Origin: a virus
Reading direction: 5' to 3' (one strand)
Virus record (IMG/VR): IMGVR_UViG_3300042564_000257
Location: 1-23,421 of that record
DNA length: 23,421 nt
The notes beneath the pieces are model-generated. The model was not told where the DNA came from. It ran no database searches and worked only from the letters and a program-made list of their open reading frames with translations. The position numbers were made by a program, and so were the translations under genes. The stretch's first letter is position 1. Every line of letters starts with the position of its first letter. This document shows, piece by piece, positions 3,006-17,323 of the stretch.

Positions 3006-3221
3006 ATGAACTCAGTTGATATGGCTAATGATCTAATCTTTCGTGCAAAGAACTTAACTGAGTTTACTATTACTACAGAAGTTCCGGATGAATTCCGATT
3101 TAATGGTGAGATTCCATTTGACATGCAGATTAAAGATAGTATAATAACAGCTAAAGTGTGGGCAGTTGACTTCGACGAGGCTGCAAAAAGATTAGATGAT
3201 TTTTTAGGAACATGTAAATGA
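3006..3221 (+). CDS. Small protein of unknown function (71 aa)
   Basis: ATG 3006 lies 2 nt after the preceding stop and the gene ends in an ATGA overlap with the next. The sequence looks like a small alpha/beta domain: an N-terminal helix (MANDLIFRAKNL), beta-strand-like segments, and a C-terminal helix (FDEAAKRLDDFLG). No family is recognised. It belongs to the folE-queE gene run by spacing. Confidence 0.65.
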   Translation: MNSVDMANDLIFRAKNLTEFTITTEVPDEFRFNGEIPFDMQIKDSIITAKVWAVDFDEAAKRLDDFLGTCK

Positions 3222-3508
3222 AATGGTTTAAAAGACTAGTTGCCGATTGGGCAAGAGAAGGTAGAAATTATGAAGAAGATTGCGCACAGCCTAACAGATT
3301 AATTAGTACTGCCGAATGTGCTTCAATCAATGATGACCCTGTACTAAACTTTAAAGTCTATTCAGCAGTAGGTGGAAAGGTTGTAGAGTTTAGACGATAT
3401 GATCGCAAGAGTGATCGCAACGATTCTACTACCTACATTATTACTAACGATCAAGACTTCGGTGATCGTATTGCTAAGATTGCAACAATGGAAAAATTAA
3501 AATTATGA
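3218..3508 (+). CDS. Protein of unknown function (96 aa)
   Basis: It starts at ATG 3218 within the previous stop and overlaps queE by 4 nt (ATGA at 3505). The N-terminus is basic and aromatic (MKWFKRLVADWAREGRNYEED); the remainder alternates charged and hydrophobic residues and includes VEFRRYDRKSDRNDSTTYII. Bases 3401-3420 contain a short direct repeat of GATCGCAA, which encodes the RKSDR region and is probably incidental. No family is recognised. Coupling to queE hints at coexpression only. Confidence 0.65.
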   Translation: MKWFKRLVADWAREGRNYEEDCAQPNRLISTAECASINDDPVLNFKVYSAVGGKVVEFRRYDRKSDRNDSTTYIITNDQDFGDRIAKIATMEKLKL

Positions 3509-4359
3509 GCAAAATTAAAATTGCAGAGCTGTTCTACTCTATACAGGGCGAGGGTAGATATATGGGGGTACCTAGTGTGTTTCTACGTACATTTGGTTGC
3601 AACTTTAAATGTGCAGGATTTGGTATGCCGCGTGGAGAAGTTAGTCATGAAGCAACTGACATTGCAGCCACACATACTATGATCGAGTCTTTTCAAAAGT
3701 ATGAAGATTTGCCTCTTGTAAGTACAGGCTGTGACAGCTATGCCAGTTGGCATCCAGACTTTAAAGATTTGTCGCCAATGCTTACAAGCGAAGCTATTAC
3801 AGATCGCATTATGGAAATTCTTCCGCAGGATTATTGGGTTGATGAACACTTGGTTATTACAGGTGGCGAGCCTTTGTTGGGTTGGCAACGTGCTTATCCA
3901 GACTTGCTAAACAATACCAAGATGCGTGACTTAAAAGAGATCACATTCGAAACAAACGGTACTCAGAAACTTACTCCAGAATTTAAAGAATACTTGGCCA
4001 AATGGAATAGCGTAGTAGGCAGAGAAATTACATTTAGTGTTAGTGCTAAACTGCCAGCAAGTGGTGAGAAGTGGGAAGAAGCTATTTGTCCAGAAATTGT
4101 TTGCGAATACGAGCAAGTGGGTACAGCGTATCTTAAATTAGTAGTAGCAACAGAAGAAGATATTAAAGATGCAGAACGAGCAGTGGGACAGTTTCGACGT
4201 GCAGGGTTTGATGGACATGTTTATCTAATGCCAGTAGGCGGTGTAGAAAATGTTTACACACTTAACGCAAAGAATGTAGCACTGGCGGCTATGAAACGTG
4301 GATGGCGTTATAGTGATAGACTACAAGTGCCGCTATTTAAAAATGAGTGGGGTACTTAA
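3505..4359 (+). CDS. queE: 7-carboxy-7-deazaguanine synthase (radical SAM), phage type with split cysteine motif
   Basis: QueE rearranges 6-carboxy-tetrahydropterin to 7-carboxy-7-deazaguanine, the precursor of PreQ0. The N-terminus IAELFYSIQGEGRYMGVPSV and FLRTFGCNFKC are typical of the family, as are ITGGEPLL (118-125), FETNGT (148-153) and the C-terminal YSDRLQVPLFKNEWG. Usual QueE has CX3CX2C-D-T. Here C32-x3-C36 is followed not by CX2C but by AGFGMPRGE and an insertion, and the third cysteine appears to be C76 in TGCDSYASW, 39 residues later, where C-D-S takes the place of C-D-T. Length (284) exceeds typical bacterial QueE (about 210-245), in line with that insertion. With folE upstream it implies 7-deazaguanine synthesis; queC and queD are not in this window. 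Confusion with the NrdG activase is unlikely given the QGEG motif. Confidence 0.9.
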   Translation: MSKIKIAELFYSIQGEGRYMGVPSVFLRTFGCNFKCAGFGMPRGEVSHEATDIAATHTMIESFQKYEDLPLVSTGCDSYASWHPDFKDLSPMLTSEAITDRIMEILPQDYWVDEHLVITGGEPLLGWQRAYPDLLNNTKMRDLKEITFETNGTQKLTPEFKEYLAKWNSVVGREITFSVSAKLPASGEKWEEAICPEIVCEYEQVGTAYLKLVVATEEDIKDAERAVGQFRRAGFDGHVYLMPVGGVENVYTLNAKNVALAAMKRGWRYSDRLQVPLFKNEWGT

Positions 4360-6894: not shown

Positions 6895-7179
6895 ATGTCA
6901 AGACCAAAACCTAAAGTTCTTTTAGAATATATAAACAAAAAGAACTATAAAAGCGAACAGATTTTAGAAGCTGAGGCTATTTGGGCTGTCTTTTATAAAA
7001 AAGCGCCGTTCAATTTAAAATCAGCAAGTAGCATTACTAGTTATCCTGGTCCTAAATACAAAAAAGTGTCATTTAGCAATCCCGGACATGCTCACAATCT
7101 TGCAAAAAAACTCAATCAAATGTTTAACTGCAACGAATTTGAAGTAGTTGAGCTTACCAGCGGTAAGTTTATTAAATGA
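6895..7179 (+). CDS. Conserved phage protein of unknown function (94 aa)
   Basis: ATG 6895 is preceded by AAGGA at 6882-6886. The protein is basic, with a helix (YKSEQILEAEAIWAVFYKK) and the segment YPGPKYKKVSFSNPGHAHNL, then a helix AKKLNQMFN and a terminal strand pair. It resembles conserved hypotheticals of T4-like cyanophages that begin MxRPKPxVxLE. No function is known. The gene has its own possible late promoter and hairpin leader, and overlaps the next gene by 4 nt. Confidence 0.8.
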   Translation: MSRPKPKVLLEYINKKNYKSEQILEAEAIWAVFYKKAPFNLKSASSITSYPGPKYKKVSFSNPGHAHNLAKKLNQMFNCNEFEVVELTSGKFIK

Positions 7180-7583
7180 TATCAAAAGAGACTTTTACCA
7201 AAATCTTTTTGCAACAAAAAGATAAAAGCATAGATAGTGCTAATATCAAACATCATATGTATAAATGGTGGCAAAGTCATAGAAGTAAAGAGTCTGGCGG
7301 CTTACGTCTTAGTGATGACGGTTTCGATTATTTGCTAAACGAATTGGAACTACACAGTTATGAAATTCCATTTACAGAACCGATTGAGCTAAGTCCCCAA
7401 ACTATCATATTTTTTGATAGATCAATGGACGGACCATATTATCTTACAAACCAAAGTATTACTGTATTTTCGGAAAGAAAATCATTTGAGCTGTACATGT
7501 TTTCGGACGATATCCGAAAATACGGTCTAGTCAAAGCAATGAATAAACAAAACAAAGATAGCCAAACAGACGAAAACTCCTAA
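7176..7583 (+). CDS. Conserved phage protein of unknown function (135 aa)
   Basis: It starts in an ATGA overlap with the preceding gene. The N-terminal segment ETFTKIFLQQKDKSID and KHHMYKWWQSHR suggest helices; the second half has repeated strand-like sections with PQTIIFFDRSMDGPYYLT and ITVFSERKSFELYMFSDD, ending in a polar tail. The pattern is one I recall from T4-like cyanophage hypotheticals. No catalytic motif is evident. Its stop lies 8 nt before the -35 box of the moxR promoter, so it closes this transcription unit. Confidence 0.8.
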   Translation: MISKETFTKIFLQQKDKSIDSANIKHHMYKWWQSHRSKESGGLRLSDDGFDYLLNELELHSYEIPFTEPIELSPQTIIFFDRSMDGPYYLTNQSITVFSERKSFELYMFSDDIRKYGLVKAMNKQNKDSQTDENS

Positions 7584-7591
7584 AAAAGCTG

Positions 7592-7620
7592 TTGACGTAA
7601 CGACTGTTAGGCAGTATAAT
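7592..7620 (+). promoter_or_regulatory. Strong sigma70-type promoter of the MoxR gene
   Basis: -35 TTGACG (7592-7597, 5/6), a 17-bp spacer and a consensus -10 TATAAT (7615-7620). Transcription would start near 7627, giving a leader of about 42 nt that holds a small GTTAAA/TTTAAC inverted repeat (7634-7656) and AGGAG at 7659. The spacer has a minor TAAC/GTTA repeat. Confidence 0.8.
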
Positions 7621-7668
7621 AGATACATAGACAGTTAAACTTAAACGCTTTTTAACCCAGGAGTATAT

Positions 7669-8766
7669 ATGAGCGAGATTCTTTCACGTACAGTTGGCCC
7701 TAAGGCAGCAAAAAAATCCCTTCGCCGTGCTTTTAAAGCCAAGCGTCCATTGTTCCTGTGGGGTCCTCCAGGTATTGGCAAATCCGACATTGTTAAACAA
7801 ATGGGCGTTGAGCTCGATGCTCACGTAATTGATATCCGTTTGAGCTTGTGGGAGCCTACCGATATTAAAGGTATTCCTTACTTTAACAGCACCTCTAATA
7901 AAATGGAATGGGCTCCTCCAATTGAATTGCCAGATGCTGAAATGGCTGCAAAGCATAAGCAGATTATCCTGTTCTTGGATGAAATGAATTCAGCGGCACC
8001 CAGCGTACAGGCAGCGGCTTATCAGTTGGTTTTGAACCGTCGTGTTGGTACGTACTACTTGCCAGACAATGTTCTTATTGTTGCGGCAGGTAACCGTGAA
8101 ACTGACAAGGGTGTTACTTATCGTATGCCTGCTCCGTTGGCTAACCGTTTTGTTCACTTGGAAATGAAAGTTGACTGGGAAGACTATTTTGGGTGGGCTG
8201 TTGACAATAAGATCCATAAGGACGTAGTTGGCTTTTTGACTTTCTCTAAAAAGGATCTGTACGACTTTGATCCGAAGTCAGCGTCACGTGCGTTTGCTAC
8301 TCCACGTAGTTGGGCATTTGTATCTGAATTGTTGTTTGATGACGAAGAAGATACAGACACATTGACCGATTTGATCTCGGGTGCGGTTGGTGAAGGATTG
8401 GCTGTTAAGTTTATGGCACACCGTAAGATTAGCTCAAAGTTGCCTGATCCTACAGACATCCTAAACGGCAAGGTTAAGAAAATGGACACTAAAGAAATCA
8501 GTGCCATGTACTCTTTGACTGTGTCATTGTGCTACGAATTGAAGGATGCCGCTGACAAGCAGGACAAGAAGTTTAACGACAAGGTTAACTACTTCTTCCA
8601 GTTTATGATGGACAATTTTGAAACTGAATTGGTTGTGATGGGTACCAAACTTGCATTGACACAATACCAGTTGCCATTGGATCCGGATGAGATCAAGTGC
8701 TTTGATGACTTCCATGCCAAATATGGTAAGTACATTGCGGCAGCTACAGAAAAGCATTCACGCTAA
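7669..8766 (+). CDS. MoxR-type AAA+ ATPase
   Basis: Walker A is GPPGIGKS (32-39), Walker B is ILFLDE (100-105), sensor 1 is near N142 (VAAGNRE), and an arginine finger is likely at R160 (LANRF). The WEPTDIKGIP segment (61-70) and PAPLANRFVHLEM are typical of the MoxR/CbbQ/NirQ branch. MoxR ATPases act as chaperone-like remodellers, usually encoded beside a VWA-domain partner, as here. Start 7669 has AGGAG at 7659-7663. Leu codon use is unusual: 24 of 33 are TTG and none TTA, with no AGA/AGG Arg codons, unlike neighbours rich in TTA/CTA and AGA. It is not a close match to my memory of cyanophage CobS, another AAA+ protein. Substrate unknown. Confidence 0.9.
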   Translation: MSEILSRTVGPKAAKKSLRRAFKAKRPLFLWGPPGIGKSDIVKQMGVELDAHVIDIRLSLWEPTDIKGIPYFNSTSNKMEWAPPIELPDAEMAAKHKQIILFLDEMNSAAPSVQAAAYQLVLNRRVGTYYLPDNVLIVAAGNRETDKGVTYRMPAPLANRFVHLEMKVDWEDYFGWAVDNKIHKDVVGFLTFSKKDLYDFDPKSASRAFATPRSWAFVSELLFDDEEDTDTLTDLISGAVGEGLAVKFMAHRKISSKLPDPTDILNGKVKKMDTKEISAMYSLTVSLCYELKDAADKQDKKFNDKVNYFFQFMMDNFETELVVMGTKLALTQYQLPLDPDEIKCFDDFHAKYGKYIAAATEKHSR

Positions 8767-8782
8767 TTTGAGCTAGCGCCAG

Positions 8783-8811
8783 TTGACAGGAGCTTCGGCT
8801 CCTGTTATAAT
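8783..8811 (+). promoter_or_regulatory. Perfect-consensus sigma70 promoter of the VWA gene
   Basis: -35 TTGACA (8783-8788), a 17-bp spacer and -10 TATAAT (8806-8811), matching both boxes at every base. Transcription would start near 8818. The spacer is almost wholly the TTCG hairpin listed separately. Confidence 0.85.
8786..8805 (+). terminator. TTCG-loop hairpin inside the promoter, probable moxR terminator
   Basis: ACAGGAGC-TTCG-GCTCCTGT is a perfect 8-bp stem with an extra-stable cUUCGg tetraloop, 19 nt after the moxR stop. The following TATAATAT is U-poor, so termination may be partial. The same bases form the spacer, plus the end of the -35 box, of the next promoter. Confidence 0.6.
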
Positions 8812-8842
8812 ATATACATACAGTAAATATTTAGGAGCAAAA

Positions 8843-10018
8843 ATGTCAAGTTATTTAGATCCAATCGTTGATAAAATTATTGTAGCACGAGTCGGTCTGC
8901 TACTACGTCATCCATTTTTTGGCAACATGGCTACACGCCTTAAGATTGAAGACGCAACTGAGTGGTGTGCTACTGCCGCTACAGACGGACGTCACTTATA
9001 TTACAATCGAGACTTTTTTGCAGACTTAACTACTAAACAGGTTGAGTTTGTTGTAGCACACGAAATTCTGCATAACGTGTTTGAGCACATGCTCCGTGTA
9101 GAAGGACGTGATCGTAAGATTTGGAACATTGCCGCTGACTATTCAGTCAACGGTACTCTTGTACGTGACCGTATTGGTGAATCTCCTCCTAAGATTAAAA
9201 TCTTTCACGACACCAAGCACTACGGCAAAAGCTCAGAACAGATCTATGATGAGATTTACGAGTCGATGGATGACGAAGAACTCGATGCTCTTGGTCAGTT
9301 GTTAGACGAGCACATCGATTGGGAAAAGGAAGGCAAGGGTCGTCCTGCATATTCCAAAGAAGAGCTCAAACAAATCCGTGATGAGATCAAAGAAGCTATG
9401 ATGACAGCGGCTCAGGCAGCGGGTGCGGGAAATGTGCCTGCAGAGATTGGTCGTATGATCAAAGAGCTTACTGAGCCAAAGATGAACTGGCGTGAGATCT
9501 TGCGTCAACAAATCCAAAGTACTATTAAGAATGACTACACCTTTATGCGTCCTAACCGCAAAGCATGGCACATGAGTGCCATTTTGCCCGGTACTAACTA
9601 CGACGAGACTATCGATATCTGTATCGGTATTGACATGTCTGGCTCTATTGGGGACGATCAGGCTAAGGATTTTATTAGTGAAATTAAAGGTATTATGGAC
9701 GAGTACAAAGAGTACAAGATTAAACTCTGGTGCTTTGATACTAAGGTCTATAATGAACAAGACTTTGACGGCTACGGTTCTGACATTATGGAATACGAAG
9801 TCAAAGGTGGCGGTGGCACTGAATTTGATGCCAACTGGAACTACATGAAAGAACACGATATCAATCCTAAAAAGTTTATCATGTTCACAGACGGTTATCC
9901 TTGGGGTAGTTGGGGAGATGAAAACTACTGCGATACAGTATTCATCATCCATGGCAATAACACTATTGTTCCTCCATTTGGTGCTCACGCATACTATGAG
10001 TCTAGTAATAAAACTTGA
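8843..10018 (+). CDS. Metallopeptidase-like plus VWA domain protein, partner of the MoxR ATPase
   Basis: ATG 8843 is chosen because AGGAG (8833-8837) precedes it and the promoter covers the upstream part of the open frame. The N-terminal half resembles the putative metallopeptidase domain of the DUF2201 family: HEILH at 73-77 (HExxH) and NIAADYSVN at 95-103, the Asp or H82 being possible further zinc ligands. A charged helical linker covers about 140-215. The C-terminal half is a VWA domain with MIDAS residues D264-x-S266-x-S268 (DMSGS), T326 (GGGGTEFD) and D350 (FTDGYP). Such proteins are commonly paired with MoxR ATPases. Proteolysis is not proven; the domain may only bind metal. The 3' end overlaps the next gene by 23 nt. 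Confidence 0.88.
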   Translation: MSSYLDPIVDKIIVARVGLLLRHPFFGNMATRLKIEDATEWCATAATDGRHLYYNRDFFADLTTKQVEFVVAHEILHNVFEHMLRVEGRDRKIWNIAADYSVNGTLVRDRIGESPPKIKIFHDTKHYGKSSEQIYDEIYESMDDEELDALGQLLDEHIDWEKEGKGRPAYSKEELKQIRDEIKEAMMTAAQAAGAGNVPAEIGRMIKELTEPKMNWREILRQQIQSTIKNDYTFMRPNRKAWHMSAILPGTNYDETIDICIGIDMSGSIGDDQAKDFISEIKGIMDEYKEYKIKLWCFDTKVYNEQDFDGYGSDIMEYEVKGGGGTEFDANWNYMKEHDINPKKFIMFTDGYPWGSWGDENYCDTVFIIHGNNTIVPPFGAHAYYESSNKT

Positions 10019-10565
10019 TCCTGATGCATTCAGTGCCGGCCAAATTGAAAGTAAAGTTTGGGCGGCACGTGAACTAGAAACAGTAGTGGCTCAACAGAAA
10101 ATTGAGCCACTACGTATTGCCATCCTAGGTGGATGGTATGCACTACTACATTTTATTCTGCAGACTAGAGAACGTGTCACAATAGAATACTGTAGATCAT
10201 ACGATGTTGATCCGGGTGCGTGTATGGATGCAAATCTTATCAATAACACTTGGGAAATAAAAGATTGGCAGTTTAGATCGTTTCCTAGAGACGCTAATAA
10301 AGCCGTATATAATGACAACATTAATCTCGTAGTCAATACATCAACTGAACATTTTGCCAGCAAAGAATGGTATGATCGTATACCAGAAGGAACATTGTGC
10401 TTGTTTCAAGGCAATGATCTAATTATAGATGATCACGTACAGCGTCCAGAAAATTTAGAACATTTTAAATCTCTCTGGCCTCTTAAAGACCTGTTTAGTG
10501 GATCGTTGTATTTTGATTTTAAAGATGCGCCTTACACTAGACATATGACAATTGGTTACAAATAA
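9996..10565 (+). CDS. Putative class I SAM-dependent methyltransferase (189 aa)
   Basis: The frame is open from 9918, but ATG 9996 gives a natural start (MSLVIKLDPDAFSAGQ). A glycine-containing motif-I-like turn follows beta-1 (RIAILGGWYALL, 40-51), then an acidic beta-2 end (YCRSYDVDP, 65-73), and NTSTEHF (114-120) at the position of motif IV; later comes LCLFQGNDLIIDDHV. This pattern fits small phage proteins annotated as class I methyltransferases. Target is unknown. It overlaps the VWA gene by 23 nt, so it is likely made from the same transcript. A 12-bp hairpin lies within its early codons. Confidence 0.65.
   Translation: MSLVIKLDPDAFSAGQIESKVWAARELETVVAQQKIEPLRIAILGGWYALLHFILQTRERVTIEYCRSYDVDPGACMDANLINNTWEIKDWQFRSFPRDANKAVYNDNINLVVNTSTEHFASKEWYDRIPEGTLCLFQGNDLIIDDHVQRPENLEHFKSLWPLKDLFSGSLYFDFKDAPYTRHMTIGYK
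10083..10113 (+). other. Strong intragenic stem-loop (12-bp perfect stem)
   Basis: Arms GTAGTGGCTCAA (10083-10094) and TTGAGCCACTAC (10102-10113) pair perfectly around a CAGAAAA loop, 65 nt after the VWA stop and inside the methyltransferase-like gene. No T-run follows, so simple intrinsic termination is unlikely. Roles in pausing, RNA stability or translation are possible. Confidence 0.6.
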
Positions 10566-11763: not shown

Positions 11764-12080
11764 CCACTGGAAAGCCATTTCCTAAAGATGTTATTGAACA
11801 TTGGCCCGAGGTATTTGGAGAGATTACCCTAAACGTAGTACCTCTTAAATATCTCGACTCGGTTACTGTTACATTTAAAAATAAAAAAGTTTGGGAAATT
11901 AAAATATCTTCTAAACAGGCCCAGGAAGATTGGGACTCGTTTGAAACTAATCTCAAAGAAATGTTAGTTTCATACGAGAGCGAAATAGAGAATGTTGATT
12001 TTAAACTCGACACTGAAAGAGTTAAAAAAGACATGATCAATAACACAAACAAATTTTTAAAGAAAAGAAAATTGAAATGA
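11760..12080 (+). CDS. Conserved phage protein of unknown function (106 aa)
   Basis: It starts with GTG 11760 in a GTGA overlap with the previous stop. The N-terminus PFPKDVIEHWPEVFGEITLN and VVPLKYLDSVTVTFKNKKVWEI, then DWDSFETNLKEML and a basic C-terminal helix (DTERVKKDMINNTNKFLKKR), match a protein that I recall as conserved in T4-like cyanophages. No function is known. It overlaps thyX by 4 nt, suggesting coupled translation. Confidence 0.8.
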   Translation: MTTGKPFPKDVIEHWPEVFGEITLNVVPLKYLDSVTVTFKNKKVWEIKISSKQAQEDWDSFETNLKEMLVSYESEIENVDFKLDTERVKKDMINNTNKFLKKRKLK

Positions 12081-12760
12081 ATGTTAAATTAATTAGTTAC
12101 AGTCAACCTACACAAGAATTTGCTGAGATGGGTGTTGACAATGCCCAAGAACTAATTGCATACTGTGCCCGTGTTAGCAATCCTGCTAATCAACTCAACA
12201 CAGAAACAAGTGAAAAACTAATCAAGTATTTGGTTAAACACCAACATTGGTCACCGCTTGAGATGGTGTCTGCTTGCATTGAAATCACAACTACTCGTGA
12301 TATTGCCCGACAAATCCTACGTCATCGTAGTTTTAGTTTCCAAGAGTTTAGTCAACGTTATGCTGATCCAACTAAAGACTTAGATTTTGTAACTCGTGAA
12401 GCAAGACTGCAAGATCCAAAGAATAGACAAAACAGCGTTAGTACTGACGACGAACAACTGCAAGCAGAATGGGAAATGATTCAGCAGGCAGTAATTGGTG
12501 CTGCCAAGGAAGCCTACGAGTGGGCTATTGAAAACGGTATTGCTAAAGAACAAGCTCGCGCTGTATTACCAGAAGGTCTTACAGAAAGTCGTTTATATAT
12601 GAATGGCACCTTACGTAGTTGGATTCATTTTATTGAATTGCGCAGTGCTAATGGTACACAGAAAGAACACCAAGAAGTAGCGGTTGCTTGTGCAAAAGCG
12701 ATTGCTGCCATTTTTCCAATGGCAACTTCTTTAATTACTCAGGACGCATTGGTAACTTAA
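12077..12760 (+). CDS. thyX: FAD-dependent thymidylate synthase
   Basis: ThyX makes dTMP from dUMP using methylene-tetrahydrofolate, NADPH and FAD. The signature RHRx7S is present as R82-H83-R84 with S92 (RHRSFSFQEFSQRY). HQHWSPLE (55-62) matches the upstream HxSPxE block, EQARAVLP (158-165) and LRSWIHFIELR (179-189) are the dUMP- and FAD-binding regions, and length (227) is typical. It is the last rightward gene; its final 26 bp overlap the end of the leftward glycosyltransferase-like gene. FolE in the same genome could raise folate supply, but also serves 7-deazaguanine synthesis. Confidence 0.96.
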   Translation: MNVKLISYSQPTQEFAEMGVDNAQELIAYCARVSNPANQLNTETSEKLIKYLVKHQHWSPLEMVSACIEITTTRDIARQILRHRSFSFQEFSQRYADPTKDLDFVTREARLQDPKNRQNSVSTDDEQLQAEWEMIQQAVIGAAKEAYEWAIENGIAKEQARAVLPEGLTESRLYMNGTLRSWIHFIELRSANGTQKEHQEVAVACAKAIAAIFPMATSLITQDALVT

Positions 12761-13805
12761 CGGTAAGTTTAAACTGCTCATACAACCAGGACCAGTCATT
12801 AATTTTTATTAGTGCGTCTTGATTTCCTTTATTCTCAGTACCATATTGCATACCTAATACAGCTCCGGGAATAACATACTCTCCAAAGCGTCTATCTAAC
12901 CCTTTAGTAGTCCAAGCAGATAAACGGTTGGCATTTTCCTCTCGATCACTTCGTGCAATAGTATTACTGGCTAACTTGGCTGCTTCACGGAATCCGCTGC
13001 GCCAGGCATTCCAAGGACTAGATGCAAATCTGTTGATACTTGCTACTTTAGGTACTATGGTAAGTTTATTACTAAGACTAGTGGTAATGTCAACACCGTC
13101 TTTTGTTATGTCAAATAACATTTTAGGTAGTAGTTTGACAGCACCGTTGCCGTACTCTAGATCATTTATTTCGTTACGACTGTGCCATATGTGTACAAGA
13201 TCAAATGCATAGTCTTCTACATAATGATCAAAGTCAAATGTGTCCAGCACTTCATTATCCCCATCAACTACCCAAAAGTAATCAGTTGTAGTTTGGTCTG
13301 AACAGGCTTTATGACTAAGGTATATGTTAGATTCTCCAAAGACTCTTTTTGCTTGTGGAAATCTTTTACTCAATATTTGCCAGTTTGCCCAACTGTTAGG
13401 TTCGTTGTAAGATAGAAAAAATATATCATATATAGTATCTGCTTGAACAATGTAAGTGTTTATATATTTTAAATCAGAGAAAAATTCTTGACTAGCATCT
13501 ATATAATGATTTTTTGGAATAAGATAACACTGAAATTTATCAGCATACTTTTGAAATAATTTAAACACATGTACAAATTCGCCATCCCATTTCTTAGGCT
13601 CAAACTCTAACATGCTATCTAAGAAGTCGTAACTCGAATCTATAAACCAAAAGAATTTAGTAAGAACATTTTTCTTAGCCAAATTAGCAGTTTTAGCTAG
13701 TGTACTATCGAACTCTACAAATTTAGCGTAAGGATATTTTTCTGTTAAGAACGATTTACGTTCTTCAGATATATGTTTAGAATTATAAAATACTATATCG
13801 TACAT
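12735..13805 (-). CDS. Glycosyltransferase-like protein with internal duplication (356 aa)
   Basis: The C-terminal two thirds is a paralogue of the next gene upstream: YDIFFLSYNEPNSWANW (126-142), RFPQAKRVFG, SHKAC, the acidic motif VVDGDN (179-184), YGNGAVKLLP and NAWRSGFREA all have counterparts there. The first approximately 115 residues look like a diverged copy of the same module (YDIVFYNSKH at 2-11, YPYAKFVEF, FWFIDSSYDFLD at 52-63) in which DGDN has become DSSY. A nucleotide-sugar-binding fold (GT-A-like) is inferred; donor and acceptor are unknown. It is translated in a TAATG overlap with its paralogue. Its 3' end overlaps thyX by 26 bp. Confidence 0.7.
   Translation of the reverse strand: MYDIVFYNSKHISEERKSFLTEKYPYAKFVEFDSTLAKTANLAKKNVLTKFFWFIDSSYDFLDSMLEFEPKKWDGEFVHVFKLFQKYADKFQCYLIPKNHYIDASQEFFSDLKYINTYIVQADTIYDIFFLSYNEPNSWANWQILSKRFPQAKRVFGESNIYLSHKACSDQTTTDYFWVVDGDNEVLDTFDFDHYVEDYAFDLVHIWHSRNEINDLEYGNGAVKLLPKMLFDITKDGVDITTSLSNKLTIVPKVASINRFASSPWNAWRSGFREAAKLASNTIARSDREENANRLSAWTTKGLDRRFGEYVIPGAVLGMQYGTENKGNQDALIKINDWSWLYEQFKLTVKLPMRPE
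12754..12769. terminator. Weak bidirectional stem-loop at convergent gene ends
   Basis: AACTTA-ACGG-TAAGTT forms a 6-bp stem with a tetraloop at the convergence of thyX and the leftward cassette, inside the coding end of the leftward gene. The stem is short and AT-rich, with TTTAAA following rightward. Termination here is plausible from position only. Confidence 0.25.
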
Positions 13806-14716
13806 TATTCTTTATCCAAAAATCCGCTACCTTTACGATACTGGTTAAGGTGCACTGATTTAAAAAATTTACTAGCATCGGCATCTAATGTTGCTATCTC
13901 AAGATCGAGTGCGTTTTTTAAACTAACACCATAGGTCTTGATAGCATCTTCAACGTTCATATACTCTACATCACTGTGCCATAGGCTAGTAAGATAATCA
14001 AAATCTCTAACCTGTACATAGTCCCAATCAGTACAGTTGGTCATATAGCAACCGTGGCGAGCTCCTAAAATAGCCCATAGTCCGTTTGTTGAGTCAGCTC
14101 CGACATTCAGCCAAACTCGCAAACGATCTAAGTTCTTCCAATGAATTTCTTTCTTAAATTCTTTATTAGCAGTACGGACTCCACGCTCAAGTGACATCTT
14201 TACACCTTCACGAAAGCCTGCTCTCCATGCTTGAAAGGCGCTGGCATTATTATATACATCACTAAAACAACTGTTCATCTGTATGTACTCAGCATCCCAA
14301 CAAAAATCTACTTGAGCATTAGGATCATCAGCGGGTGCGTTTTCATGCGTTTTCATGTCTAATACATACTGCTTAGGCCATAACTTTAATCCGCCGTTGC
14401 CATACATAAGTCCGTTGACTACATTGTAACCTGCCCAGCTAATAACACATTTAGACAAGTCTTTATGCTCGTCAAAATCAATTTCTTGATTTAGGAAATC
14501 TTCTCGTACTGTATTATCACCATCTACTGTGACAAAACGGTCTGTATCACTTAGGCGTGCGCAAGCCTTGTGTGCTTCATCGCTGCCTTTAACACCATGC
14601 ACACGTTTTGCCCAAGGTACTTTCTTTAGCAAATCTGCATAATTTTTTTCAGCATTTGGTTCATCATAACTAAGGTAGATAATGTCGTAGTCTAAAATTT
14701 TAACTGTTTGTGTCAT
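13805..14716 (-). CDS. Glycosyltransferase-like protein with DGDN motif (303 aa)
   Basis: The N-terminus YDIIYLSYDEPNAEKNYADL (10-29), PWAKRVHGVKGSDEAHKAC, and TVDGDNTV (63-70) place an acidic DxD-type metal/nucleotide-sugar motif after an alternating beta-alpha region, as in GT-A glycosyltransferases. YGNGGLKLWPKQ, then FQAWRAGFREGVK, and LRVWLNVGADSTNGLWAILG are shared with the downstream paralogue. I recall related proteins in T4-like cyanophages annotated as possible glycosyltransferases. The start is an ATGA overlap with the upstream gene. The acceptor could be virion proteins or modified DNA; nothing in the sequence decides. Confidence 0.7.
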   Translation of the reverse strand: MTQTVKILDYDIIYLSYDEPNAEKNYADLLKKVPWAKRVHGVKGSDEAHKACARLSDTDRFVTVDGDNTVREDFLNQEIDFDEHKDLSKCVISWAGYNVVNGLMYGNGGLKLWPKQYVLDMKTHENAPADDPNAQVDFCWDAEYIQMNSCFSDVYNNASAFQAWRAGFREGVKMSLERGVRTANKEFKKEIHWKNLDRLRVWLNVGADSTNGLWAILGARHGCYMTNCTDWDYVQVRDFDYLTSLWHSDVEYMNVEDAIKTYGVSLKNALDLEIATLDADASKFFKSVHLNQYRKGSGFLDKE

Positions 14717-15330
14717 TTTATAATATAGTATCCTACTGTAGAAAAGAATTGTTTAACATATACTGCAATATTATCAATATCGCCTTCTTTATCAGAATGG
14801 TAGTATACTATTTCTCTGTCTTTTTTAATTAATTCATTGATTGAGACTTTGATAGTCCTGTATATAAAATTCATATTACGCTTGTCAATTATATAAATTT
14901 CAAGCGTAGTATTAAGATTATATTTTTTTAATATTTCTCGTTGGTCGTTGCGTATTTGAAATCCCCACTTTTTAAATGTAGGATAGTTTTCAATAGTAAA
15001 CATGCTATCCCAGTCGGTAACTACTGGGGCACTAGTTAAAAATACAGCAGATATATCATCTTCGTATTTAGAAACAATTCGTGGCGTATTTTGATCAATA
15101 AATGTAACTTGAAAATCTTTAGATCGGCTAGTACCGTTTAAAAATTCTTTAACAATATCAAATTCGAATTCTACAAAACAATCATAGTGTAAGCTGGCTT
15201 CATTAGTAATACTTAAAATATCCCCAGTGTCTTTTTCAAAGTATACTCGATAAGGTAATACCACAGTACTCAATGCTAATGATTGAGCTAGTAATTCATA
15301 GGGGACAATGTCTTCTTCTGGATTATACAT
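14713..15330 (-). CDS. Phage protein of unknown function (205 aa)
   Basis: It starts with an 8-nt overlap with the upstream GT8-like gene and ends in an ATGA overlap. The N-terminus MYNPEEDIVPYELLAQSLAL is followed by a strand-rich, acidic region with YRVYFEKDTGDILSI and SLHYDCFVEFEFDIV. A middle segment (APVVTDWDSMFTIENYPTF) and YIIDKRNMNFIYRTIKVSI come before an acidic C-terminus. No family is recognised. Its place inside the glycosyltransferase cassette suggests a partner or acceptor-related role, or a virion accessory, without direct evidence. Confidence 0.7.
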   Translation of the reverse strand: MYNPEEDIVPYELLAQSLALSTVVLPYRVYFEKDTGDILSITNEASLHYDCFVEFEFDIVKEFLNGTSRSKDFQVTFIDQNTPRIVSKYEDDISAVFLTSAPVVTDWDSMFTIENYPTFKKWGFQIRNDQREILKKYNLNTTLEIYIIDKRNMNFIYRTIKVSINELIKKDREIVYYHSDKEGDIDNIAVYVKQFFSTVGYYIIK

Positions 15331-16147
15331 TTAATTTCTCAATAATCTTGTCAGTAAGGAATGCATCCTCTACATAATGAAACACACCACGTTGTCTAAA
15401 ATTATTTAGATATAATTCTTTAGAGTCTGTAAAATTTACCAGTAATTGACTTAGACAAGATTGTGGAATTGGATCCCATCCTTGCAATGCTGGCTTTAGG
15501 TGTGTGAAAGTAAATGGGCTGTTTTTATTTGTAATAACGTCATCAATTCCCATTAACTTAGCAGCAATGGCTACTGATACATCAAAACTGTAAAAATTCT
15601 GCATATTCTTAGGAGCAACATCATAGAAAACTTTATTCCAATTATTAGTAATAAATTCTAACAGTTTAAAAAAATCTTCTGCGAGTTGAGATTTTTTAAA
15701 ATAACACATACCAGAATATAAATTTGGTAAATCATTAGCCACAAACATTTTTCTATATGTGTTGTCAACAACTGTGCGTGATTTATAATCTACAACCGAT
15801 GATGTAAAAAATAAATCTCGATCGCTGGCGAATTTCCATACATGTTCTATGTTATCTAAAACCAACATGTCTGCATCAAGTACAATAGTTTCATCATAGG
15901 GACTTGATCTATATAGTTTCCATCTGTTTTCTACTTTCCATGTACTATTTGCAGCCGAGTCTCCAAAATAGATTGGAATAACTTTATCAAATGCTTTAGA
16001 AAATCCCGCTGGTAAAGAATCATTAGTAATAATACTAATATTATTGATAGTCGGTTGTGTAGCTTTGATACTCAATGCCAGTGCGTATGCTTGACGCACA
16101 TAGTCAACATCACTATTCTGAGCAAGAACTAAAAATCCCTTACTCAT
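15323..16147 (-). CDS. GT8-like glycosyltransferase (274 aa)
   Basis: The N-terminus (KGFLVLAQNSDVDYVRQAYA) followed by ISIITNDSLPAGF and then SPYDETIVLDADMLVLDNI places a DAD (DxD) motif at residues 91-93 after beta strands, as in glycogenin/GT8-type retaining transferases that use Mn2+ and a nucleotide sugar. LYSGMCYFKKS and a late HLKPALQGWDPIPQS fit donor/acceptor loops of such enzymes. Length is typical of a single GT-A domain. It is a paralogue of the gene immediately upstream, which it overlaps by 8 nt. Substrates are unknown. Confidence 0.75.
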   Translation of the reverse strand: MSKGFLVLAQNSDVDYVRQAYALALSIKATQPTINNISIITNDSLPAGFSKAFDKVIPIYFGDSAANSTWKVENRWKLYRSSPYDETIVLDADMLVLDNIEHVWKFASDRDLFFTSSVVDYKSRTVVDNTYRKMFVANDLPNLYSGMCYFKKSQLAEDFFKLLEFITNNWNKVFYDVAPKNMQNFYSFDVSVAIAAKLMGIDDVITNKNSPFTFTHLKPALQGWDPIPQSCLSQLLVNFTDSKELYLNNFRQRGVFHYVEDAFLTDKIIEKLNV

Positions 16148-16979
16148 TTACTACTCCGTCAATACAACGAGTAAGACTATATTTGTTCATAACGTGTACA
16201 TCTAAATTGCTAGTTTTAACAGCAGTATATTCACCGTTGTAATTTTTCTTTTCCACTAAAAATTTTAATTTTGAGTTATCTATATCTAACAAAATATCTC
16301 TATCTAAAATGTAGTTCATCTTTCCAGGTAACGGGGCTGCAAAATCTTCACCCATCATATGTATAGCAATACTAAATGCAAAATCATTTCTAAATATTCT
16401 AGAATCTATATTGTACAACAATCTATAGTAATTCCAATTTAATTTGATGTTTTTAATTAGGTCAAAGAATGCCCAAGTAGCTGTGGTCTTTTTAAAATAA
16501 AATGCAGTGGCCCAATAGAATGGAATTGAATGTTGATTTAAATATCTAAAACTACGGTCGTCTCGCCAGTTAGCTAGATCAAAACTATCGTTATATATTA
16601 AAAAATCGTTTTGATTATTCCATATATTTTTTAATGTAGTACTACTAATGATAAAGTCACTGTCAATAACTAGCGTCTCATCATAGGGGGACAAATAACA
16701 ACAGTCGCCCCTTGATAAGTTTTTCCATGTTAGTGTCTTTGCAGCCAGTGATCCGTCATAGAATTTTTTAGTCTGATGTGTTTCTGTCCATATTTCTATA
16801 ATCTGATCAAAAACTGATTCTGCGTCAGGTTGACTTTGTTTAAGCCAACTTGCACTATCAGTGATAAGACTTACAGGAACTCCGAGATATTCTTTTACTC
16901 GTTTGGCTGCAAACAAAGATATCTTTGCATAATCAATTTCTGCATTATTTTGTGCAAATATTAAAACGCCACAGGTCAT
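16140..16979 (-). CDS. GT8-like glycosyltransferase paralogue (279 aa)
   Basis: It shares with the downstream gene an N-terminal VLIFAQNNAEIDYAKISLFA, VSLITDSASWL, and SPYDETLVIDSDFIISSTT, putting the DxD motif at D106-S-D108. YWATAFYFKKTTATWAFFDL aligns with the neighbour's YSGMCYFKKS region. The active-site acidic pair is kept, so it is likely functional, but the sequences are diverged enough for a different donor or acceptor. Translation starts in an ATGA overlap with the small gene upstream. Placement right after the tail-fibre genes makes glycosylation of virion parts a reasonable guess. Confidence 0.72.
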   Translation of the reverse strand: MTCGVLIFAQNNAEIDYAKISLFAAKRVKEYLGVPVSLITDSASWLKQSQPDAESVFDQIIEIWTETHQTKKFYDGSLAAKTLTWKNLSRGDCCYLSPYDETLVIDSDFIISSTTLKNIWNNQNDFLIYNDSFDLANWRDDRSFRYLNQHSIPFYWATAFYFKKTTATWAFFDLIKNIKLNWNYYRLLYNIDSRIFRNDFAFSIAIHMMGEDFAAPLPGKMNYILDRDILLDIDNSKLKFLVEKKNYNGEYTAVKTSNLDVHVMNKYSLTRCIDGVVNE

Positions 16980-17323
16980 AGGGCCATTAAATCGCCAACT
17001 CGGCGTTTGGTTTTAATTTGATTATATTTTACCAAATAGTCGTTAGTTGCACTAAAATAGATAGAAATAATCTCGTCTAAAAATGTTTTTAGATCGGGTA
17101 TTTCTACTGGGATGTTGTTGTCGTCAAGTACTACGGCCACTGTAGTTTCACGGGCAACTAGTGTGCTGATAAAAGTAATTAAATTTCTTTCAATAGTGAA
17201 ACTTGCACCTTGAAAATAATAGATAAGACTTTGTTGAAATTCTTCGAGAATAACCTTGCGTTGATTGCTCAACGTGGTCATATAATTGGCTGTTTGAAAT
17301 GCCTTTTCTAATCGTTCGTCCAC
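16976..17323 (-). CDS. Conserved T4-like phage protein of unknown function (115 aa)
   Basis: Start GTG 17323 (minus strand) is supported by GGAGGT whose complement lies at 17328-17333, and by the promoter at 17343-17371. The protein begins MDERLEKAFQTANYMTTLSN and has helices (QRKVILEEFQQSLIYYF), a beta region and a C-terminal IYFSATNDYLVKYNQIKTKR. I recall homologues with the same opening in T4-like cyanophages, all of unknown function. It heads the leftward cassette and overlaps the first GT8-like gene by 4 nt. Confidence 0.82.
   Translation of the reverse strand: MDERLEKAFQTANYMTTLSNQRKVILEEFQQSLIYYFQGASFTIERNLITFISTLVARETTVAVVLDDNNIPVEIPDLKTFLDEIISIYFSATNDYLVKYNQIKTKRRVGDLMAL

Follow-up and report, generated by a model that had tools for sequence, protein, structure and literature searches.

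The window analysed here, the whole 23,421-nucleotide stretch of IMG/VR virus record IMGVR_UViG_3300042564_000257, carries a MoxR-type AAA+ ATPase gene followed by a partner gene that fuses a zincin-like metallopeptidase domain to a VWA domain. The gene pair itself is ordinary: it belongs to the phage pair typified by gp24/gp25 of phage N4 and is not a new system. The interesting part is a covarying hairpin nested inside the promoter of the partner gene, a feature absent from the account of an earlier note on the same letters. Taken together, the two genes are read with moderate confidence as the MoxR-VWA protein-remodelling machine of a large phage, laid out as two insulated early or middle units around a nested terminator-promoter. 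The features concerned are as follows.

7592..7620, + strand: sigma-70 promoter of the ATPase gene, TTGACG-17-TATAAT, 11/12 match, without hairpin
7669..8766, + strand: MoxR-type AAA+ ATPase gene, 365 aa (motif, Pfam, PHROG and structure-model evidence)
8783..8811, + strand: composite promoter of the VWA gene, TTGACA-17-TATAAT, 12/12 match, extended -10, TGTTATAAT
8786..8805, + strand: inverted repeat in the VWA promoter, ACAGGAGC-TTCG-GCTCCTGT, likely an RNA terminator hairpin ending the ATPase message
8843..10018, + strand: zincin-like metallopeptidase domain fused to VWA domain, 391 aa (Pfam and conserved residues)

The ATPase and its partner

Both genes are preceded by good ribosome-binding sites and are real. 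The earlier note had described a MoxR-branch ATPase with Walker motifs ahead of a protein with HEILH and a MIDAS DMSGS, and the motifs were found at the places claimed. In the translated ATPase, Walker A (GPPGIGKS) spans residues 32-39 and Walker B (LFLDE(M)) residues 101-105, accompanied by AGN at 140-142, R160 and R213 of the PRSW motif, all of which are kept across about 30 diverse members. The protein matches AAA, AAA_3 and AAA_5 of Pfam above cut-off and is placed in phrog_1297 (337 bits, E=1.9e-100). Its AlphaFold model (pLDDT 87, pTM 0.76) has NorQ, NorQ-NorD and CbbQ structures as top Foldseek matches, and by sequence profile Midasin is the best match among solved structures. Matches to the ATPase in PADLOC were generic AAA only and were set aside.

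The partner carries HEILH at residues 73-77 and DMSGS from residue 264 of its translation, with a complete MIDAS in the VWA domain (D264, S266, S268, T326, D350). It matches DUF2201_N (E=1.4e-39) and DUF2201 (E=1.9e-14) of Pfam and is placed in phrog_1314 with 372 bits. Across 31 partner proteins, H73, E74, H77, D99, N103 and all five MIDAS residues are invariant. Judged from its spacing, D99 is a candidate third metal ligand. When the comparison was widened to a set of 13, the partner of phage Atu_ph07 was seen to have Q in place of E74 (HQILH), so peptidase chemistry may be dispensable in some members. The N-terminal half has a weak profile match to MJ1213 (E=0.003); the domain may be described as zincin-like, its peptidase activity as putative. 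An AlphaFold model of the partner (pLDDT 77, pTM 0.53) was obtained, and Foldseek related the VWA half to I-domains and the Midasin MIDAS domain.

Public annotation gives the partner other names: phrog_1314 is labelled 'HNH endonuclease' in PHROGs and in RefSeq phage records, and a 121Q note says 'T4-gp25-like'. Set against domains that read as DUF2201_N and VWA, these labels look wrong and have spread.

A pair widespread in large phages

By tblastn against phage records, the partner was found in 770 and the ATPase in 825, and the host-genus tallies of the two genes nearly coincide. Carriers include N4 (gp24/gp25), the 121Q/RaK2-like jumbo phages, PA5oct, Atu_ph07, phage G and Sinorhizobium phage Phosso; relatives in IMG/VR number at least 598. 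Of the window-clade loci, 77 extend as far as the ATPase gene; in 76 it immediately precedes the partner and in the other (L040) one gene is inserted, so the side-by-side arrangement seen by the earlier note is conserved. Phages of very different hosts, amounting to some 800 records and hundreds of metagenomic contigs, retain the pair, and a literature search found no paper testing its function.

The pair also occurs, at 73% and 62% identity and in a gene order resembling that of the window, on L323 (PBPT01000016.1), a contig of 335 kb assigned to a Neomarinimicrobiota genome bin. This contig has the look of a large phage genome, or a piece of one, that was misbinned with its host. Stop-codon recoding was considered for L331 and L332 and dropped, the suspected codon being the terminal stop only. 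The V18 and K54 genes adjoining the partner proved not to be ATPases. Elsewhere in the window, FolE, QueE-like and ThyX genes (1483-2229, 3505-4359 and 12077-12760) point to possible phage 7-deazaguanine DNA modification and thymidylate synthesis. The minus-strand genes that follow one another at 12735-16979 are without Pfam matches, and the most that any of them has is a hit to an unknown PHROG; two of them, 13805-14716 and 12735-13805, are alike by eye. Rfam and tRNA scans of the window were empty.

Two conserved sigma-70 promoters

Promoter-like sites occur in the whole window at chance level (63 found against 62.7 expected), so a consensus match alone is little proof and conservation is the real evidence. 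That evidence bears out the earlier proposal of a separate sigma70-like promoter for each gene: of about 80 metagenomic relatives, nearly all have retained both promoters (11/12 and 12/12 in the window). Among 81 loci, 80 have the VWA promoter with a match of 10-12/12; in the exception, L040, it sits one gene further upstream. Where a locus extends far enough upstream, the ATPase promoter is nearly always present too, with conserved hexamers and a freely varying spacer. When the regions ahead of the two genes were scored in 12 long relatives, each of the 24 reached at least 11/12, compared with 11 of 243 other ORFs.

The accompanying claim that the surrounding genes are packed with no promoter gaps was overstated. 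A 12/12 promoter-like site (TTGACA-16-TATAAT) lies at 3118-3145 (+), inside the gene 3006-3221 and 72 nt before the next gene, and an 11/12 sigma-70-like site at 17371-17343 (-) stands ahead of the minus-strand gene 16976-17323, beside tail genes. Further, several relatives have an 11/12 promoter upstream of folE, a gene recognised there by size and position. T4 late promoters (TATAAATA) were absent from the window and fewer than in the reversed control in most relatives, so that search provides no argument on the timing of the genes.

A hairpin nested in the partner promoter

In the relatives, a perfect inverted repeat (8-bp stem, 4-base loop) invariably fills the spacer between the -35 and -10 boxes of the VWA promoter. 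Across 31 sequences all 248 of 248 stem pairs are formed, with 54 compensatory double changes distributed over five of the eight pairs, and the covariation score of the stem is 0.535; shuffles give 0.128, and sliding the stem gives no more than 0.173. As the outer ACA/TGT of the stem double as promoter letters (TTGACA and the extended -10), the independent evidence comes only from the five inner pairs and from a single change in the outer part (L078, ACG/CGT). The inner stem turns over quickly, being the same in 29% of pairs at about 10% protein distance and in 15% at about 20%. Among 29 distinct versions of the element, the loop is of the YNMG type on the plus strand in 25 and on the minus strand in two; this one-sided preference indicates an RNA hairpin in transcripts that read through from the ATPase gene.

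These observations suggest that the nested repeat is probably an RNA terminator closing the ATPase message, although the sequence that follows it (TTATAATATATA) is a poor U-tract. An unlikely alternative is that the palindrome works as DNA, either as the binding site of a dimeric regulator or as a cruciform. Every stem pair in the 31 sequences is Watson–Crick, with zero G-U, as this explanation would have it, and a position between -35 and -10 would suit a regulator. However, a protein reading the sequence would not permit so fast a turnover of its half-sites, and the loops are of the YNMG type on one strand only. Template-switch mutation and correction of palindromes, rather than selection, could be partly behind the perfection of the stem.

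A hand-off can be imagined as a long shot: on reaching the end of the ATPase message, polymerase would stop with its active site over the partner -10 box and restart immediately from the partner promoter, so that motor and adaptor would be produced in step although their messages stay separate. As a separate observation, a 13-bp perfect inverted repeat (GTAGTGGCTCAA...TTGAGCCACTAC) lies at 10083-10113, 65 bp past the VWA stop and inside the next reading frame.

When IMG/VR was scanned for the version with a UNCG loop, 112 sites were returned. The inner stem is perfect in 100 of them, and of those 100, 84 are in the ATPase-partner context and 16 elsewhere. Ten large relatives that were searched have at most one nested element each. 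Only in L040 is a gene inserted between the element and the partner gene; the insert (6999-7577, 192 aa) resembles an Fe(II)/2-oxoglutarate oxygenase by eye. Several of the hairpin-in-promoter sites found elsewhere (L124, L223, L276, L289; L220, L232, L233, L265, L299) precede genes that, by eye, resemble those of the T4 gp44 clamp loader and of a gp32-type ssDNA-binding protein.

Many of the more distant carriers arrange the junction differently. An ordinary terminator after the ATPase gene and a separate partner promoter are found in L323, L324, L335, L338, Phosso, PA5oct and phage G, and a terminator is also present at the junction in 121Q, L326 and Atu_ph07. The gp24-gp25 gap of N4 showed no clear terminator and no nested hairpin-promoter. 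This distribution suggests that the window clade packs terminator and promoter functions into 29 bp.

What the pair might remodel

If the pair works like NorQ-NorD, CbbQ-CbbO and RavA-ViaA, the ATPase would form a hexameric ring on which the partner docks. The MIDAS of the VWA domain would then hold an acidic residue of the substrate, ATP hydrolysis would pull the substrate apart or reshape it, and the fused zincin-like domain would clip or bind it. The host sigma-70 polymerase would transcribe each gene as a separate unit, with the ATPase message probably ending at the hairpin inside the partner promoter spacer, a composite of the PeSL type. The two-promoter layout and the covarying hairpin lead to testable predictions on separate expression of motor and adaptor.

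As to the substrate, the phage's own assembly proteins are a tentative best guess, slightly ahead of a widely conserved host machine, which is a possible class as well. The first of these corresponds to a published proposal. Iyer et al. (2021, PMC7824862) described a MoxR and metallopeptidase-vWA pair in jumbo phages as a proposed virion-assembly chaperone; an analogous assembly role has been proposed for the MoxR-VWA pair of an archaeal two-tailed virus. Such a chaperone, folding or processing tail or head proteins, is a plausible if doubtful function here. The pair of 121Q and CBB lies between a tail-sheath and structural block and thymidylate-synthase and tail-fibre genes. Further, the phAPEC6 virion list contains the ATPase as gp265c (49.52 kDa, six peptides), which corresponds to 121Q gp563 (49.51 kDa) by mass and gene order, and the PA5oct ATPase is annotated 'ESI-MS/MS'. 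However, the CBB virion list is without CBB_216 and CBB_217, the expected 54 kDa partner is not listed for phAPEC6, and the partner is absent from every virion list examined. Virion lists also hold replication proteins, so carry-over is possible, and the mass-spectrometry evidence for the pair is mixed. The host-type promoters, with no visible late class, also sit poorly with an assembly role, as do the middle-phase transcription of N4 gp24/gp25 and the retention of the pair in phages with unrelated virions (N4, rV5-like phages and a Thermus phage).

A further candidate function is early host take-over, in which the pair would dismantle or inactivate a conserved host complex. This is rather unlikely, despite near-consensus sigma-70 promoters retained over wide distances, carriers that span a wide host range, and PeSL-type promoters that elsewhere precede genes resembling the gp44 clamp loader and the gp32-type ssDNA-binding protein. 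Promoter type by itself does not establish timing, and a minus-strand gene by the tail genes also has an 11/12 promoter.

Comparison with known systems

NorQ-NorD, CbbQ-CbbO, RavA-ViaA and CobS-CobT likewise place a MoxR ATPase beside a MIDAS-bearing VWA partner, but the window partner carries a zincin-like domain, unlike NorD, CbbO, ViaA and CobT. The HMM search that the earlier note had proposed as a check matched DUF2201_N/DUF2201 and AAA_3/AAA_5, and not the CobS, CbbQ_C or RavA-lid profiles. The impression that the ATPase is not CobS was correct: TIGR01650 does not match it, and the phage cobS-type phrog_249 scores 25.8 bits only, against 337 bits for phrog_1297. The RavA-type lid AAA_lid_8 (PF17868) was found neither in the window ATPase nor in any of 29 members, with a positive E. 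coli control, and CbbQ_C (PF08406) neither in the window ATPase nor in members, with positive control genomes. By these profile tests, on which the separation from CobS, RavA and CbbQ rests, the window pair is not CobS/CobT, RavA/ViaA, CbbQ/CbbO or NorQ/NorD, and its likeness to NorQ and CbbQ is one of fold only. This bears on a further possible function: the pair could load metal into a phage metalloenzyme or activate it, as is known for cobaltochelatase and nitric-oxide reductase. Among solved structures, the ATPase fold comes closest to NorQ and CbbQ, and related MoxR-VWA pairs serve metalloenzymes; however, the missing CobS, CbbQ_C and RavA-type lid signatures, and the lack of a consistent metalloenzyme neighbour among the relatives looked at, make this function improbable.

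The suggestion that the pair may be a distinct system did not hold, as it is already known from N4 and from jumbo phages (Iyer et al. 2021). N4 gp24/gp25 (phrog_1297/phrog_1314) correspond to the two window proteins in kind and in gene order; identity is 28% and 26%, and the Walker, HExxH and MIDAS residues are conserved. The window has the features of this pair, namely a phrog_1297 ATPase, a DUF2201_N and DUF2201 partner, intact HExxH and MIDAS, and adjacency. The jumbo phage pair of Atu_ph07 has the same domains and is closer (41% and 40% identical), but differs in its HQILH and in having an ordinary terminator between the genes.

For the nested element, the comparison is with PeSLs, the composite promoter-terminator motifs that Comeau et al. 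2014 (a reference in PMC5931544) name in their title. In the RB49 sequence, a hairpin is nested between TTGAC and TATAAT/TATACT at several places, and the window element is like these PeSLs in combining a strong sigma-70 promoter with a stem-loop. PeSLs are mobile, multi-copy cassettes in variable regions. In contrast, the element of the window clade occurs once per record and is fixed at one gene junction in more than 80 contigs. In this clade, a relative of the jumbo phage PA5oct, a PeSL-type element known from T4-type phages is found settled at a single junction.
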